64,000 nt of DNA from Bullifex porci (GTDB taxonomy: Bacteria; Spirochaetota; Spirochaetia; Sphaerochaetales; Sphaerochaetaceae): positions 1-64,000 of the forward strand of contig NZ_VUNN01000010.1 of NCBI RefSeq assembly GCF_009695635.1, read 5' to 3'. The notes beneath the pieces were generated by a model. That model saw only the letters and a list, made by a program, of their open reading frames with translations, had not been told where the DNA came from and searched no databases. Shown here in pieces: positions 119-24,479 of the stretch. A program made the translations under genes and the position numbers. Within the stretch, counting starts at the first letter, position 1. Every line of letters starts with the position of its first letter.

Positions 119-1390
119 TTAAAAATCGAAAGATGCGAAATCATTATCAGGTGGTAATATTTGCATCACAGATTTCACTTCTACTGTTGGATGTTCTTCT
201 GGCATCTTGGGCTCAAACTGAAATTCACTATAATGAGGTTTAAGGGACCAATCTGCTTTGTATTGCTCCAGCACGCTATAAGAATCGAAATCAAGAATAT
301 AAACATCATCTAAATTTCTCATAATGCGAGCTTTCTTTTGTTTATAGCTAAAAGGAACTCCATATCTGCGTCCTTCGTAATAAACAAAACCATCTAGTGT
401 TATTGCTCTAGATGGTGCAAGATAAGGCATTATTAATTCTTTTGCTGGAGATTCAATAAGTGGTTCTGTTTTATGAATTTCAGCAGGTATAACTCCAAGA
501 CCTTTTTGTAAATGACTATTTTCTTTCATACACCAATTTAGTGCTTGAGTGTTTAGATCATTTACATTGATGAATGTTCTACCTTGAATAAAATTATTTT
601 TTACAAACTGTACTAACCTTTCAACTGCTCCTTTAGTCCATGGATGCTTGACCTTACAAAGTCTTGTTTCTACACCTAAGAGATTTTGAAAATCGTCATA
701 TTCCTTATTAAATATTGGATTTCCATTACAATCTCTATGGCTTGAAACACTAGCCATATTATCCGTAAGAATAATCTTAGGTACTCCCATTACCATAAAG
801 GCATGAATCATCCCTATAAAAAGGCTTTCTTGCTTTGCATTTGGGAAAAACTCAATAAATCTAAAACCGCAATGATGACAAACCATCGCAAAACATGCAC
901 ATTTCCACACTTTTCCAAAGCTGTCGATTACATTAACAAAACCCCAATCCATTTGATACATTTCTCCAGGACCTGTACTATAACGATTAACCTTGCCTTG
1001 TGGTTTTTGTATTATTAGGCGTTTCGCTGGTATTAGATTTTGATTAGTTTTTATAAAGTTTTTTACTGTTGTTAGGCCACCCAAATAACCTAATTCTTTT
1101 ATTTGCTCATATATTACAGATGAGTTAGTTACTCCTTGTTTCAAAAGTTCTACAGCTCTTTGCTCACCTTTTCCAGCAATTAAGTGGTTATCCTTTTTGT
1201 GGCTATTCCCATGTGGTTTTACCTCAAGGCCATTTTCCAACAACCTTTTGATTTTTTTACGAGATAAACTTGTTCTTCTTTGAATTTCAGGTAAGTTAAG
1301 CTTTCCATCTTTTTTGAAAGCAATTCCTTCTGCCTTCATTTTTTCAATTTCATTAGTTATAATGTTAATAGCATCTTTGTCTTTTTGCAT
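119..1390 (-). CDS. istA: IS21-family transposase IstA
   Basis: This is the DDE transposase that cuts and joins the ends of an IS21-type element. Residue numbers count from the GTG at 1405. An N-terminal HTH region (about residues 35-60) precedes the integrase core, with likely catalytic D153 (QMDWG), D215 (LTDNM) and E262 (GAVER). A C-terminal beta-barrel region contains the YYEGRRYGVP motif. Frame opens at a GTG (1405), but the ATG at 1390 sits 4-5 bases behind AAGGAG and is the better start, giving about 423 residues, normal for the family. istB follows after 11 bases. Multiple terminal repeats lie upstream at 1459-1558. The gene looks intact, so the element may be active. Confidence 0.93.
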   Translation of the reverse strand: MQKDKDAINIITNEIEKMKAEGIAFKKDGKLNLPEIQRRTSLSRKKIKRLLENGLEVKPHGNSHKKDNHLIAGKGEQRAVELLKQGVTNSSVIYEQIKELGYLGGLTTVKNFIKTNQNLIPAKRLIIQKPQGKVNRYSTGPGEMYQMDWGFVNVIDSFGKVWKCACFAMVCHHCGFRFIEFFPNAKQESLFIGMIHAFMVMGVPKIILTDNMASVSSHRDCNGNPIFNKEYDDFQNLLGVETRLCKVKHPWTKGAVERLVQFVKNNFIQGRTFINVNDLNTQALNWCMKENSHLQKGLGVIPAEIHKTEPLIESPAKELIMPYLAPSRAITLDGFVYYEGRRYGVPFSYKQKKARIMRNLDDVYILDFDSYSVLEQYKADWSLKPHYSEFQFEPKMPEEHPTVEVKSVMQILPPDNDFASFDF

Positions 1391-1458
1391 ATTACTCCTT
1401 TGCACTTTTAGTATGGATTGTATGTGCTGGATTATATCAAAATTACTTAAGATGCTTT

Positions 1459-1558
1459 TCCTTTTTTAACTGACTTTTTTTATCCCTTTTTAATTGACTA
1501 CTTTTAAATTGTTCCTTTTTAGTTGACTATTTCTGTCCCTTTTTAGCCGACTCCAACA
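1459..1558 (-). repeat. IS21 element terminus with four IstA-type repeats
   Basis: Read on the minus strand from 1558, the end begins TGTTGGAGTCGG and carries four copies of a motif of the form AGTC-RRYT-AAAAAGG. Their GACT cores on the plus strand lie at 1472, 1496, 1525 and 1549, so the spacings are 24, 29 and 24 bases. A TG-initiated tip with several internal repeats is the usual plan of IS21-family ends, where the repeats bind IstA. The tip sits exactly at codon 361 of tnpB. The other end of the element is outside the window, so a target-site duplication cannot be checked. Confidence 0.8.
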
Positions 1559-2638
1559 TATGTTCACCGCAGCATTCACGTCCCTGTCGTGATACACCCC
1601 GCATTCCGGGCATGTCCACTTACGGACACTGAGGTCTTTGGTGCTCGGCCACACATGTCCGCAGACGGAGCAGGTTTGGGACGACGGGTAGTACCGTCCA
1701 ATCCTGATGACCCTGGTCCCGTACTTTCGGGCACTCCACTCCAAGATTTCCACAAACTCTGAAAACGCATAGTCGTGGACCTTGCGTCCCCACATCCTCG
1801 CCATACCCTTGATATTAAGGTCTTCTATGGCTATGACGCCGTACCTTGAACAGAGTTCGTGGCTTAGCTTCCAGAACCAGTCCCTTCTCCTGTTGGCGAT
1901 ATCTTGGTGCCTGCGGTACAGTGCCTTCAGTGCACACTCGTATCCGTTGCTCCCCATCACCTTACGGCTCAGGGCACGGCTGGCTTTTCGGACTTCGTTT
2001 ACTCCCTGTCTGAAAAACTCCGGGGATCTGATCACACTGCCGTCCGACAGCGAAAGAAACGTCTTGAGTCCGAAGTCCATGCCGACCTCACCGCGCCCGT
2101 CCCTGGTTTCAAGCATGGTGACGGGGCTGTCGGTGGTGACGTAGACGAAAAACTCTCTGAGTATGTTGCGCTTTACCGTTACGGTCTTGATTTTGATCCG
2201 TTCCAAGAGTCCGTCATAGGAGTCCCAGTATCTGTAGATGTGTCCGTTTATGCTTATGCGTCCGCCAGTAAGGAATCTGTATCCCGCCTGTTTGTAGGTG
2301 ACGCTTTTGTACTTTTTGACCTTGCGACGTCGCGGTGGCGAACATTTGACTCCCTTCTCCCTGTTAGTGAAAAACAGCTTGTACGCCCTGTATATCCTGT
2401 CGGTTATCTCCTGTACTGCCTGGCTTCCCACATAACGCCAGTGGTGGTTTTCATCCTCGTTGCGAAGACCACGGAGCTGTTTCTGGAGTTCATATTTATC
2501 CAAAAGCTTCCCTGTTTCGGTATAGTGGTCCTGTATGATTGTCAGTGCCGTGTTGTATATGATCCCGGCGATATTTATCATATCACTAAGGTATCCGAAG
2601 TCATCGCTGCCATACAGTTTTACTGTCAGTGTCCGCAT
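1490..2638 (-). CDS. tnpB: TnpB RNA-guided nuclease of an IS200/IS605-type element, 3' end replaced by IS21
   Basis: TnpB is the RuvC-type, omega-RNA-guided nuclease ancestral to Cas12. Visible are RuvC-I D188 (GMDFG), RuvC-II E272 (IEDLN), a zinc ribbon C323-C326/C343-C346 and RuvC-III in HDRDVNAAVNI (351-360), so the catalytic core is complete. ATG at 2638 (MRTLTVKLYG) fits the family start better than the in-frame ATG at 2674, which lies upstream of the -10 box. From codon 361 (TGT at 1558) the frame runs into the IS21 terminus, which supplies 22 foreign residues and the stop. GC content is far above that of the neighbours, suggesting transfer. The right end and omega-RNA region are not attached to the gene any more. 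Confidence 0.9.
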   Translation of the reverse strand: MRTLTVKLYGSDDFGYLSDMINIAGIIYNTALTIIQDHYTETGKLLDKYELQKQLRGLRNEDENHHWRYVGSQAVQEITDRIYRAYKLFFTNREKGVKCSPPRRRKVKKYKSVTYKQAGYRFLTGGRISINGHIYRYWDSYDGLLERIKIKTVTVKRNILREFFVYVTTDSPVTMLETRDGRGEVGMDFGLKTFLSLSDGSVIRSPEFFRQGVNEVRKASRALSRKVMGSNGYECALKALYRRHQDIANRRRDWFWKLSHELCSRYGVIAIEDLNIKGMARMWGRKVHDYAFSEFVEILEWSARKYGTRVIRIGRYYPSSQTCSVCGHVWPSTKDLSVRKWTCPECGVYHDRDVNAAVNICWSRLKRDRNSQLKRNNLKVVN

Positions 2639-2727
2639 GACATCATTATAGCACATTTTTATGGCATTATGCATTACCGCCTTTCATCTCACGGACAAGG
2701 CGCGTGAGCTTTCTCGGCGGTTAATTT
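1559..2727 (-). mobile_element. tnpB-only IS200/IS605-type element, interrupted at its 3' end
   Basis: The left end starts right after TTAC (minus strand, plus positions 2728-2731) inside an AraC-type gene. A second copy of the left end at 23281 also starts right after TTAC while the flanks differ, so the boundary can be set to the base. IS608-type Y1 transposases insert 3' of TTAC, which supports the family call. No tnpA is present. The right part beyond tnpB codon 360 has been cut off by the IS21 insertion and lies outside the window. Confidence 0.82.
2645..2720 (-). promoter_or_regulatory. Left-end hairpin and tnpB promoter
   Basis: On the minus strand a two-part stem is formed by CCGCC (2716-2720) with GGCGG (2677-2681) and, inside it, CTCACG with CGTGAG (2703-2708/2688-2693). 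Subterminal hairpins of this kind are what Y1 transposases recognise in IS200/IS605 left ends. A TATAAT box (2645-2650) follows, only about 6 bases before the tnpB ATG, so transcription from it would give a leaderless or near-leaderless message. Confidence 0.6.
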
Positions 2728-2855
2728 GTAAAACCCTTTTGAAGATAAAAAGTAGAAATATTCAATTCTTTTGCGATAACACTTGCATTAATATCCTCTT
2801 TTATATTGTCCTCAATGTAGTTAATGCAATCACCAATTAGCTTCATCCACTCCAA
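2728..2855 (-). pseudogene. AraC-family regulator, N-terminal fragment disrupted by the tnpB element
   Basis: A TTG at 2855, 7 bases behind GAGGAG, opens a frame reading MEWMKLIGDCINYIEDNIKE and ending ...ISTFYLQKGF before the element begins. This is the first helix-turn-helix of an AraC DNA-binding domain (CINYIEDNI...IAKELNIST.YLQK.F). The reading stops 4 residues later at a TAA inside the element. The remainder of the gene must lie beyond the nested elements, outside the window. The host codons end at the TTAC target. Confidence 0.78.
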
Positions 2856-23004: not shown

Positions 23005-23280
23005 CTATTTTTTTAAATCTTCTTTTGTATTTTCAAATCTAAGTATATTAGCTACACCTATACAGTTTAATAAAATAGAAACACTGAAGCCACTGTTTAT
23101 TGCACCTTTTGCACTTTCCTTGATACAGGAATTTCCATCAACACCTATAATTTCTATCTCAGAAATATTCTTTGAGTTACGATATGAAATCAGCTCTTCA
23201 GATGAAAAGGCATTTGCTTGTTTCTTGCAAAATATATTATCTGATGTAAGAAAGAGTTGGTCTGCAAACTCATCTGTTAC
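23005..23280 (-). pseudogene. Isochorismatase-family cysteine hydrolase, C-terminal fragment
   Basis: Ninety-one codons without start run VTDEFADQLFLTSDN to IGVANILRFENTKEDLKK and a TAG at 23007-23005. The block IEIIGVDGNSCIKESAKGA contains the nucleophile Cys of nicotinamidase/isochorismatase-like hydrolases, followed by the usual GFxV strand and RF-x-x-T tail. The 5' half is missing. The break at 23280 is exactly where the second copy of the tnpB-element left end begins, after TTAC. The N-terminal half was not found downstream. Confidence 0.72.
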
Positions 23281-23373
23281 AAATTAACCGCCGAGAAAGC
23301 CCACGCGCCTTGGCCGTGAGATGAAAAGCTGTAATGCGTAATGCCATAAAAATGTGCTATAATGATGTCATGC
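23281..23373 (+). mobile_element. Solo left end of the tnpB element (relic or MITE)
   Basis: These 93 bases match the left end of the tnpB element at 2727-2635 (opposite strand) with only about six mismatches. They include the inner hairpin, the TATAAT box and the tnpB start codon ATG plus one base, then similarity stops abruptly. The outer CCGCC/GGCGG stem is broken by substitutions (GGCGG became AGCTG). The copy sits directly 3' of TTAC (23277-23280), as does the other one. Either an internal-deletion derivative or the remains of a decayed full copy. Confidence 0.82.
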
Positions 23374-23928
23374 TATAGATAGCTATTTTATATATAGATA
23401 ATCTAGTCAAAATATTTGCTTTATGCGAGGGAGAATTGATTGAAAGATTGCCAAGCGTTCGTAGTCTGACATGCCTCAATAAAAACCAAAGGATCATGCA
23501 AACGTAGATTCGTTCCAAAATCAGAAGTATAAGAGTTCATTGAAGGTGCAATGCTTCTAATGAACGTAGTTGGCATAAAGATATTTGAAGATACAAATAC
23601 AATATTAAGGAATCGACTCATAAAAAGAACAAGAAAAAAAGACTGAAAACATTGAATATCTGGAATCAAATGATGCAGTCCTCACAAACCATGTCTACTA
23701 TTATTCCAACGCAAAGGACAATCATCTCCACATGGCTCGACACGACATGAAGTACATCTAGCATTAGGGGTGTTTACAATAGGGCGATAACTCTCCCAAA
23801 ACCGAGGTTTGAACACCTATCGTTTATGAAACGAAGGGGTATGAGGACACTCATATAGTGATTGAAAAAATATCTATATGGCATGAATTTTACCATTCCA
23901 AGCTCCACTTCAAAACAATGAAAATACA
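23374..23928. other. Relic region without an intact gene
   Basis: About 555 bases hold only scraps. A minus-strand open stretch (23421-23669) contains ...SIAPSMNSYTSDFG... but lacks a ribosome site and homologue I recognise. Plus-strand scraps are KTENIEYLESNDAVLTNHVY (about 23640-23760, ends at TAG) and VYETKGYEDTHIVIEKISIW (about 23817-23880). A short motif CCTATCGTTT (about 23817) recurs near 24890. The stretch looks like the debris of one or more mobile elements. Confidence 0.35.
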
Positions 23929-24210
23929 TCACTTCTTAAACAGCTCAGAATGAGAACCTAAACGATAAAGCATTAAGACAAGGACATCTCCACGGATTTC
24001 ATAAATCAGAAGCCAATCGGGTTCTACATGACATTCCCGAGTTCCTCTATAGTTTCCTGTCAAACTATGATCCTTGTATTTTGCATCCAGTATTTCACCA
24101 TTTGCCAAAATATCAATTACTTCAAAAAGCTTACCAAGATCTTTGTTTTGTTTTTTTGCGAGCTTAAGATCTTTTTTAAACTGGGATGTAAACTGAAGAT
24201 CATACTTCAT
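23929..24210 (-). CDS. yafQ: YafQ/RelE-superfamily mRNA interferase toxin
   Basis: The 93-residue toxin cleaves mRNA on the ribosome. It shows the YafQ pattern LTGNYRGTRECHVEPDWLLIYEI...LYRLGSHSELF, with the likely catalytic His in LTGNYRGTRECHVEPD and GSHSELF and the Asp in EPDW. It overlaps the antitoxin gene by 4 bases (ATGA), the standard coupling of type II modules. Neutralised by the DinJ-like protein upstream. Confidence 0.93.
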   Translation of the reverse strand: MKYDLQFTSQFKKDLKLAKKQNKDLGKLFEVIDILANGEILDAKYKDHSLTGNYRGTRECHVEPDWLLIYEIRGDVLVLMLYRLGSHSELFKK

Positions 24211-24479
24211 ATTTCAAGAGCTTCCTTTAGGGCCTCAAGACTGGTATATCTCGGAGCACTAGGATCATTAATCATTTTTCTACCTTCAGCTATAGCTGCT
24301 GATGTTATATCGTTTGGAACCTCAAGCTTCAACTCAAAAGGAATGCCGCATTCACGAATAGTTGCTCTTAAAAACATGTTAATAGCTGTGGTCATATTGA
24401 TACCAAGCTCGTTATAAATAGTTTCCGCCTGGTCCTTTATATCTTTATCAGTCCTTATATTCAGATTTGTTGTAGACAT
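24207..24479 (-). CDS. dinJ: DinJ/RelB-family antitoxin
   Basis: The 90-residue protein begins with a ribbon-helix-helix domain (TTNLNIRTDKDIKDQAETIYNELGINMTTAINMFLRATI), as in DinJ, which binds operator DNA, and has a C-terminal arm for the toxin. AGGAG lies 7 bases before the ATG. First gene of the dinJ-yafQ operon; the promoter is at 24502-24530, where autorepression is expected. Confidence 0.93.
   Translation of the reverse strand: MSTTNLNIRTDKDIKDQAETIYNELGINMTTAINMFLRATIRECGIPFELKLEVPNDITSAAIAEGRKMINDPSAPRYTSLEALKEALEI

Follow-up and report, generated by a model that had tools for sequence, protein, structure and literature searches.

A solitary transposon left end probably cut short by a second repeat

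The window analyzed here, which comprises the first 64,000 nucleotides of Bullifex porci contig NZ_VUNN01000010.1, carries a solitary transposon left end (LE) that we interpret, with a probability of roughly 85%, as what is left of an IS608-like, tnpB-only element, once present as a full-length copy, after an unrelated repeat, ISX, landed in that copy and a deletion followed. With the full element as query, blastn aligns element positions 1-92 at 23281-23373 on the forward strand (93 columns, 93.5% identical, E = 9.8e-32). At E ≤ 1 it returns just one further match within the window, the minus-strand copy at 2727-1559, hereafter the reference copy. Both LEs begin immediately 3' of TTAC in unrelated flanks, and similarity in the solo copy stops at ...GTCATGC, that is, at the tnpB ATG plus one base. 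The initial annotation had reported the 93-base match to 2727-2635, the TTAC before both copies, the unrelated flanks and the point at which similarity stops, and on each it is borne out. The end of the similarity is not arbitrary: a 41-bp ISX end starts at base 23374. The features of the two loci are as follows.

23008-23280, minus strand: C-terminal remnant of an isochorismatase-domain gene (PF00857 positions 86-151 of 175), interrupted at the insertion site
23277-23280, plus strand: TTAC preceding the solo copy (target and left cleavage site), the same tetramer that precedes 14 of the 15 LE matches in the genome
23281-23373, plus strand: solo left end (blastn and layout) with guide AAAG (+16 to +19), then the hairpin and an adjoining 3' AT, a TATAAT-like box recognized by eye, and the tnpB start codon plus one base
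23374-23414, plus strand: terminal 41 bp of the unrelated repeat ISX, which ends the LE similarity; identical on contigs 29, 13 and 7
2728-2731, minus strand: TTAC of the reference copy (L004), from reading of the LE flank
2635-2727, minus strand: left end of the reference copy (blastn)
1559-2638, minus strand: tnpB of the reference copy (PF07282 and PF01385), cut at element position 1168
119-1558, minus strand: IS21-family element, present in part (left end and transposase ORF 119-1405; NF033546), inserted in the reference tnpB

ISX, which the initial annotation had missed, is defined by recurrence. All 41 bp of 23374-23414 are identical to C29:87-127, C13:41556-41596 and C7:59229-59269 (C, contig); at all three of these places the shared sequence begins at one and the same base, TATAGATAG, preceded by unrelated flanks, and the contig 7 end (L044) sits within another tnpB copy. 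Because an identical end with the same start base recurs in unrelated flanks, including within another tnpB, these 41 bp, as judged from the junctions, act like the terminus of a distinct repeat. The end is also found in one same-genus genome at 88%. Each of the three identical copies meets a contig end 124-127 bp in, and the genome showed no complete one. Pfam and NCBIfam provided no family assignment: one ORF gave only a sub-cut-off match to TIGR04570, and the first 59 residues of that ORF matched, among 16 genomes, only the genome of origin. The ISX ends are moreover non-uniform, as its first 39 bp are missing at one locus of this genome (L069) and one of genome G006 (L090), which have their flank in common there. 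The window itself departs from ISX after 41 bp, and the four bases that come next, TTTG, would be consistent with a deletion that joined two CTAGTCAAAATA repeats within ISX.

The gene on the other side of the solo copy was correctly named an isochorismatase in the initial annotation; it matches PF00857 but is partial, with only its C-terminal part recognizable. Its N-terminal half is not recognized in the stretch from 23374 to about 23932 by six-frame Pfam searches; the same stretch, translated with X at stops, gave no Pfam match over cut-off in six frames (one match at E = 0.25 fell below it) and no NCBIfam match in two. Past the first 41 bp after the solo LE, the next ~500 bp have no second copy in the genome. 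Among 15 same-genus relatives, two yield a partial isochorismatase match and none an intact empty site. Just past the remnant, at 23929-24479, lie genes for a YafQ-like toxin and a RelB-like antitoxin on the strand opposite to the solo LE.

Copies and target sites of the parent tnpB element

Searches of the genome (2.42 Mb in 67 contigs) returned 15 LE, 14 tnpB and 22 right-end matches, the latter comprising 16 of this tnpB family and six short hairpin-only matches (28-35 bp), which were excluded from the right-end count below. TTAC precedes 14 of the 15 LEs, compared with a background frequency of 0.0059 per base in the window, and the preference is therefore far from chance; the one exception, TGAC at contig 22 (L010, C22:24438), could be explained by mutation of the flank or by a relaxed choice of target. 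The earlier proposal of an IS608-like insertion after TTAC, with target choice readable from the sites themselves, is supported by these counts, while the expectation that every copy would follow TTAC holds for 14 copies and fails at the TGAC copy, a single instance of what had been named as contrary evidence. Once five copies of the same-genus genome G004 and one from a Clostridiales metagenome-assembled genome (MAG) are added, the tally becomes 20 of 21, the Clostridiales copy likewise following TTAC and having G as its first element base. The target deduction is thus correct but expected for an IS608-like element.

On the opposite side, right ends stop at TCAA in 16/16 cases in the genome and in all eight MAG loci that reach the right end, a count for which an exact 15-base end served to locate the loci, catching 24 of 24, and to which the distant cyanobacterial loci L080-L083 do not belong. 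Four of the six excluded matches (L052-L055) belong to another repeat that has the same hairpin at its right end, CCCATGGGCTTGCCCGTGGG or close to it, but runs on as ...GTCAG; this repeat is possibly a second IS200/IS605 group.

Nine copies are complete and span 1340-1341 bp, with tnpB only; eight of them have an open frame for a 377-aa TnpB with RuvC motifs and one has an in-frame stop. The claim that the family is tnpA-less holds, as the 1340-bp element contains tnpB and nothing else. Its GC content is 53%, against 35% for the window. TnpB scores 241 bits against NF040570 (guided_TnpB; cut-off 100) and 232.6 bits, below the cut-off of 425, against the narrower NF038281 (IS200_TnpB). With RuvC and TNB domains encoded between LE and right end and no transposase, the element answers to the IS1341-type description; the Y1 transposase TnpA, one of the features looked for in an IS608-like IS200/IS605 element, is absent from it.

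Architecture of the element ends

Of 20 in-register LEs, 18 have guide AAAG immediately before the left hairpin on its 5' side (AAAA in L007 and L008), and AT stands directly 3' of the hairpin in 20 of 20, at +41 and +42, although the register was itself defined by AAA and AT, so that the AT count is not independent; the Clostridiales LE (L076), one base out of register, was left out of the 21. GATT takes the place of the IS608 GAAT at 23 right ends of the 24, L047 having AATT instead, a replacement that we presume, in the light of structural work, to keep the right-end pairings. An outer stem, CCGCC/GGCGG, surrounds the left guide and hairpin, as seen by eye and in the predicted fold, and each of its pairs is formed in between 15 and 20 of the 20 copies (18 if G-T at 10:49 is counted); it appears to be an addition relative to IS608. 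Covariation appears to back the left hairpin weakly: only pair 21:39 has both C-G and T-A, and C-A occurs in seven of 20 copies.

In Helicobacter pylori IS608, an IS200/IS605 member that also has TnpB, the published account describes cleavage sites TTAC (left) and TCAA (right) and guides AAAG and GAAT, with A+16 and A+17 pairing with target T-3 and T-4 and with A+42 and T+43, 3' of the hairpin, completing base triplets (PMC5934647). The present family shares TTAC, TCAA, AAAG and the guide position +16 to +19, and has its A and T 3' of the hairpin one position earlier; unlike IS608, it has no tnpA, and it has GATT where IS608 has GAAT. Since TTAC, TCAA and the left guide are the published IS608 values and tnpA is missing, we assign the parent, on its sequence, as an IS608-like, tnpA-less (IS1341-type) IS200/IS605 element. 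Ten of 18 IS1341 elements surveyed elsewhere measure 1252-1393 bp, and TCAA is named among the frequent right cleavage sites of the elements in that survey (PMC9956272); a 1340-bp element with only tnpB between its ends resembles the IS1341 elements, and no feature that would distinguish it from them was found.

Candidate transposases and relatives

The search for a tnpA that the initial annotation had called for produced six Y1_Tnp matches elsewhere in the genome, and at E ≤ 1e-3 blastn aligned the element to none of the loci that carry them (L030-L035). Because five of the six begin at or near a contig end, an autonomous partner may have escaped detection. The Y1_Tnp protein of contig 18, the one compared, is related to IS608 TnpA (2vhg, E = 2.1e-27; 2a6m, 'ISHp608 transposase', E = 3.2e-27); near-identical pieces of it lie on contigs 31 and 38, and by eye the region after it is unlike the right end of this element. 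Movement of the parent family probably depends on a Y1 transposase supplied in trans from an unlinked locus. More doubtful is the specific proposal that this IS608-like contig 18 TnpA, with its different right end, is the unlinked enzyme by which a tnpB-only family with IS608 targets and left guide spread to at least 15 sites and to the Clostridiales MAG; were it true, end recognition would tolerate different ends, and target choice would stay with the element's own guide.

LE matches occur in two of the 139 genomes searched in the family, namely this genome and one of the same genus, and close TnpB relatives were found in Spirochaetales MAG SUG382, which is probably that same-genus genome, and in the Clostridiales MAG (88%); viral contigs gave no TnpB relative, close or distant. 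The Clostridiales contig (JAQXNU010000139.1, L076) holds the whole element, 88% identical. This distribution suggests recent horizontal spread, and misbinning of the Clostridiales contig is possible.

Nested damage among the copies

The reference copy is itself broken, a circumstance that the initial annotation had not recorded: about the last 5% of tnpB and the right end are absent, and the copy abuts an IS21-family element whose ORF 119-1405 scores 165.7 bits against NF033546 (transpos_IS21; cut-off 160) and 32.5 bits against Pfam rve, just below the cut-off of 32.6. The junction reads ...GAACATA followed by TGTTGGAGTC. On contig 10 (C10:46361-46537) an IS21-type end is followed by a right half that starts near element position 1165, and the half in the window runs to 1168; it is possible that the two are partner halves of one copy, for which a 4-bp duplication, CATA, would fit.

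Of 15 broken edges examined across the family, 10 have, directly at the break or no more than 30 bp away, sequence that is also present at a second edge of the set. A single IS21-type right end, recognized by eye, accounts for four (L038, with 28 bp between, L043, L047 and L051), ISX for two (L044 and the solo copy) and other repeats for two pairs (L027 and L028; L026 and one side of L029); the reference copy is the eleventh edge, and at the remaining four (L015, the other side of L029, L049 and L050) no repeat was recognized. Nested damage is therefore common for this tnpB family, and some breaks have no repeat to explain them. Seven of the 15 edges fall within element positions 1109-1178, a 70-bp stretch near the tnpB 3' end, with differing neighbors, and this stretch is a possible insertion hot spot.

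L015 is a second LE-only copy, 67 bp long, at C8:40944-41010. Its break point differs from that of the solo copy, and the 301 bp that follow have no second match in the genome, for which reasons L015 and the solo copy are not members of a single mobile class.

Origin of the solo left end

In the course of events that we favor, the element inserted 3' of TTAC in the isochorismatase gene, where the target site is still visible, presumably by the single-stranded Y1-transposase route of IS608. ISX would then have inserted one base past the tnpB start codon, an event recorded as the junction with its terminal 41 bp, and a deletion or rearrangement from within ISX would have taken away what remained of ISX together with tnpB, the right end and the isochorismatase N-terminal half, a step we infer because these last three are all missing and one deletion from ISX accounts for every loss. 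The remnant should be immobile because it has no right end. Against this sequence of events, the right part of the solo tnpB and the far ISX end were not found in the genome, so that the second and third steps are reconstructed from one side; the want of a family assignment and of a full-length copy for ISX, its non-uniform ends, the lack of an empty site among the relatives, the repeat-free break of L015 and the four edges at which no repeat was recognized also weigh against it, as does the modest divergence of the solo LE, which is hardly more diverged than the rest (mean identity 0.941, compared with 0.918-0.964 for 13 others).

The initial annotation had left two origins open for the solo copy, a deletion product and a small non-autonomous derivative mobilized in trans, and the evidence supports the former, as the break is a junction with the end of another repeat and no right end is near. 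A derivative with a distant or cryptic right end would account for the conservation of TTAC, of guide AAAG and of the AT 3' of the hairpin, and the six Y1_Tnp matches could supply its transposase. Neither the right-end search of the genome nor the full-element blastn of the window, however, placed a right end beside 23281-23373, at a fixed distance or otherwise; the break recurs in none of the other 14 LE matches, the adjoining bases are the ISX end, and the solo LE is predicted to fold less stably than one intact LE (-3.9 versus -10.7 kcal/mol), with its outer stem lost. The several copies with LE and right end at a short fixed distance that would mark such a class, which we take to be the one labeled MITE/PATE-like, were not observed, and we regard this origin as very improbable. 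Only slightly better placed, and still unlikely, is the insertion of an already truncated copy by one-ended or aborted transposition, with ISX reaching its edge later: L015, with unmatched sequence beyond its break, gives it a parallel, but ISX would have had to start by coincidence exactly at the truncation, whereas a single ISX insertion covers both. That the LE has been retained as a promoter or hairpin for a neighboring gene is the least credible of these readings, since the TATAAT-like box seen by eye near the tnpB start is directed into about 550 bp with no protein-family match, and the next genes that have one, the YafQ-like and RelB-like pair, lie on the other strand.

Halanaerobium hydrogeniformans carries many IS605 copies at varied stages of decay that are thought to be movable by TnpA in trans, and the present family resembles them in its many decaying copies; those elements are reported to keep their ends intact, unlike the solo copy, which has no right end (PMC7290912). 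By analogy with ISDra2, whose TnpB is described as cutting next to its insertion target TTGAT (PMC8612924), the target-adjacent motif of the present TnpB can be predicted to be TTAC. The solo copy is most likely a product of ordinary decay, a fossil in the genome and not a novel class of mobile DNA, and leaves current understanding unchanged; it illustrates that a solo end resembling a miniature transposon can be a scrap of nested insertion, and its parent family provides a clean set of sites, TTAC on the left and TCAA on the right, for a tnpB-only element.
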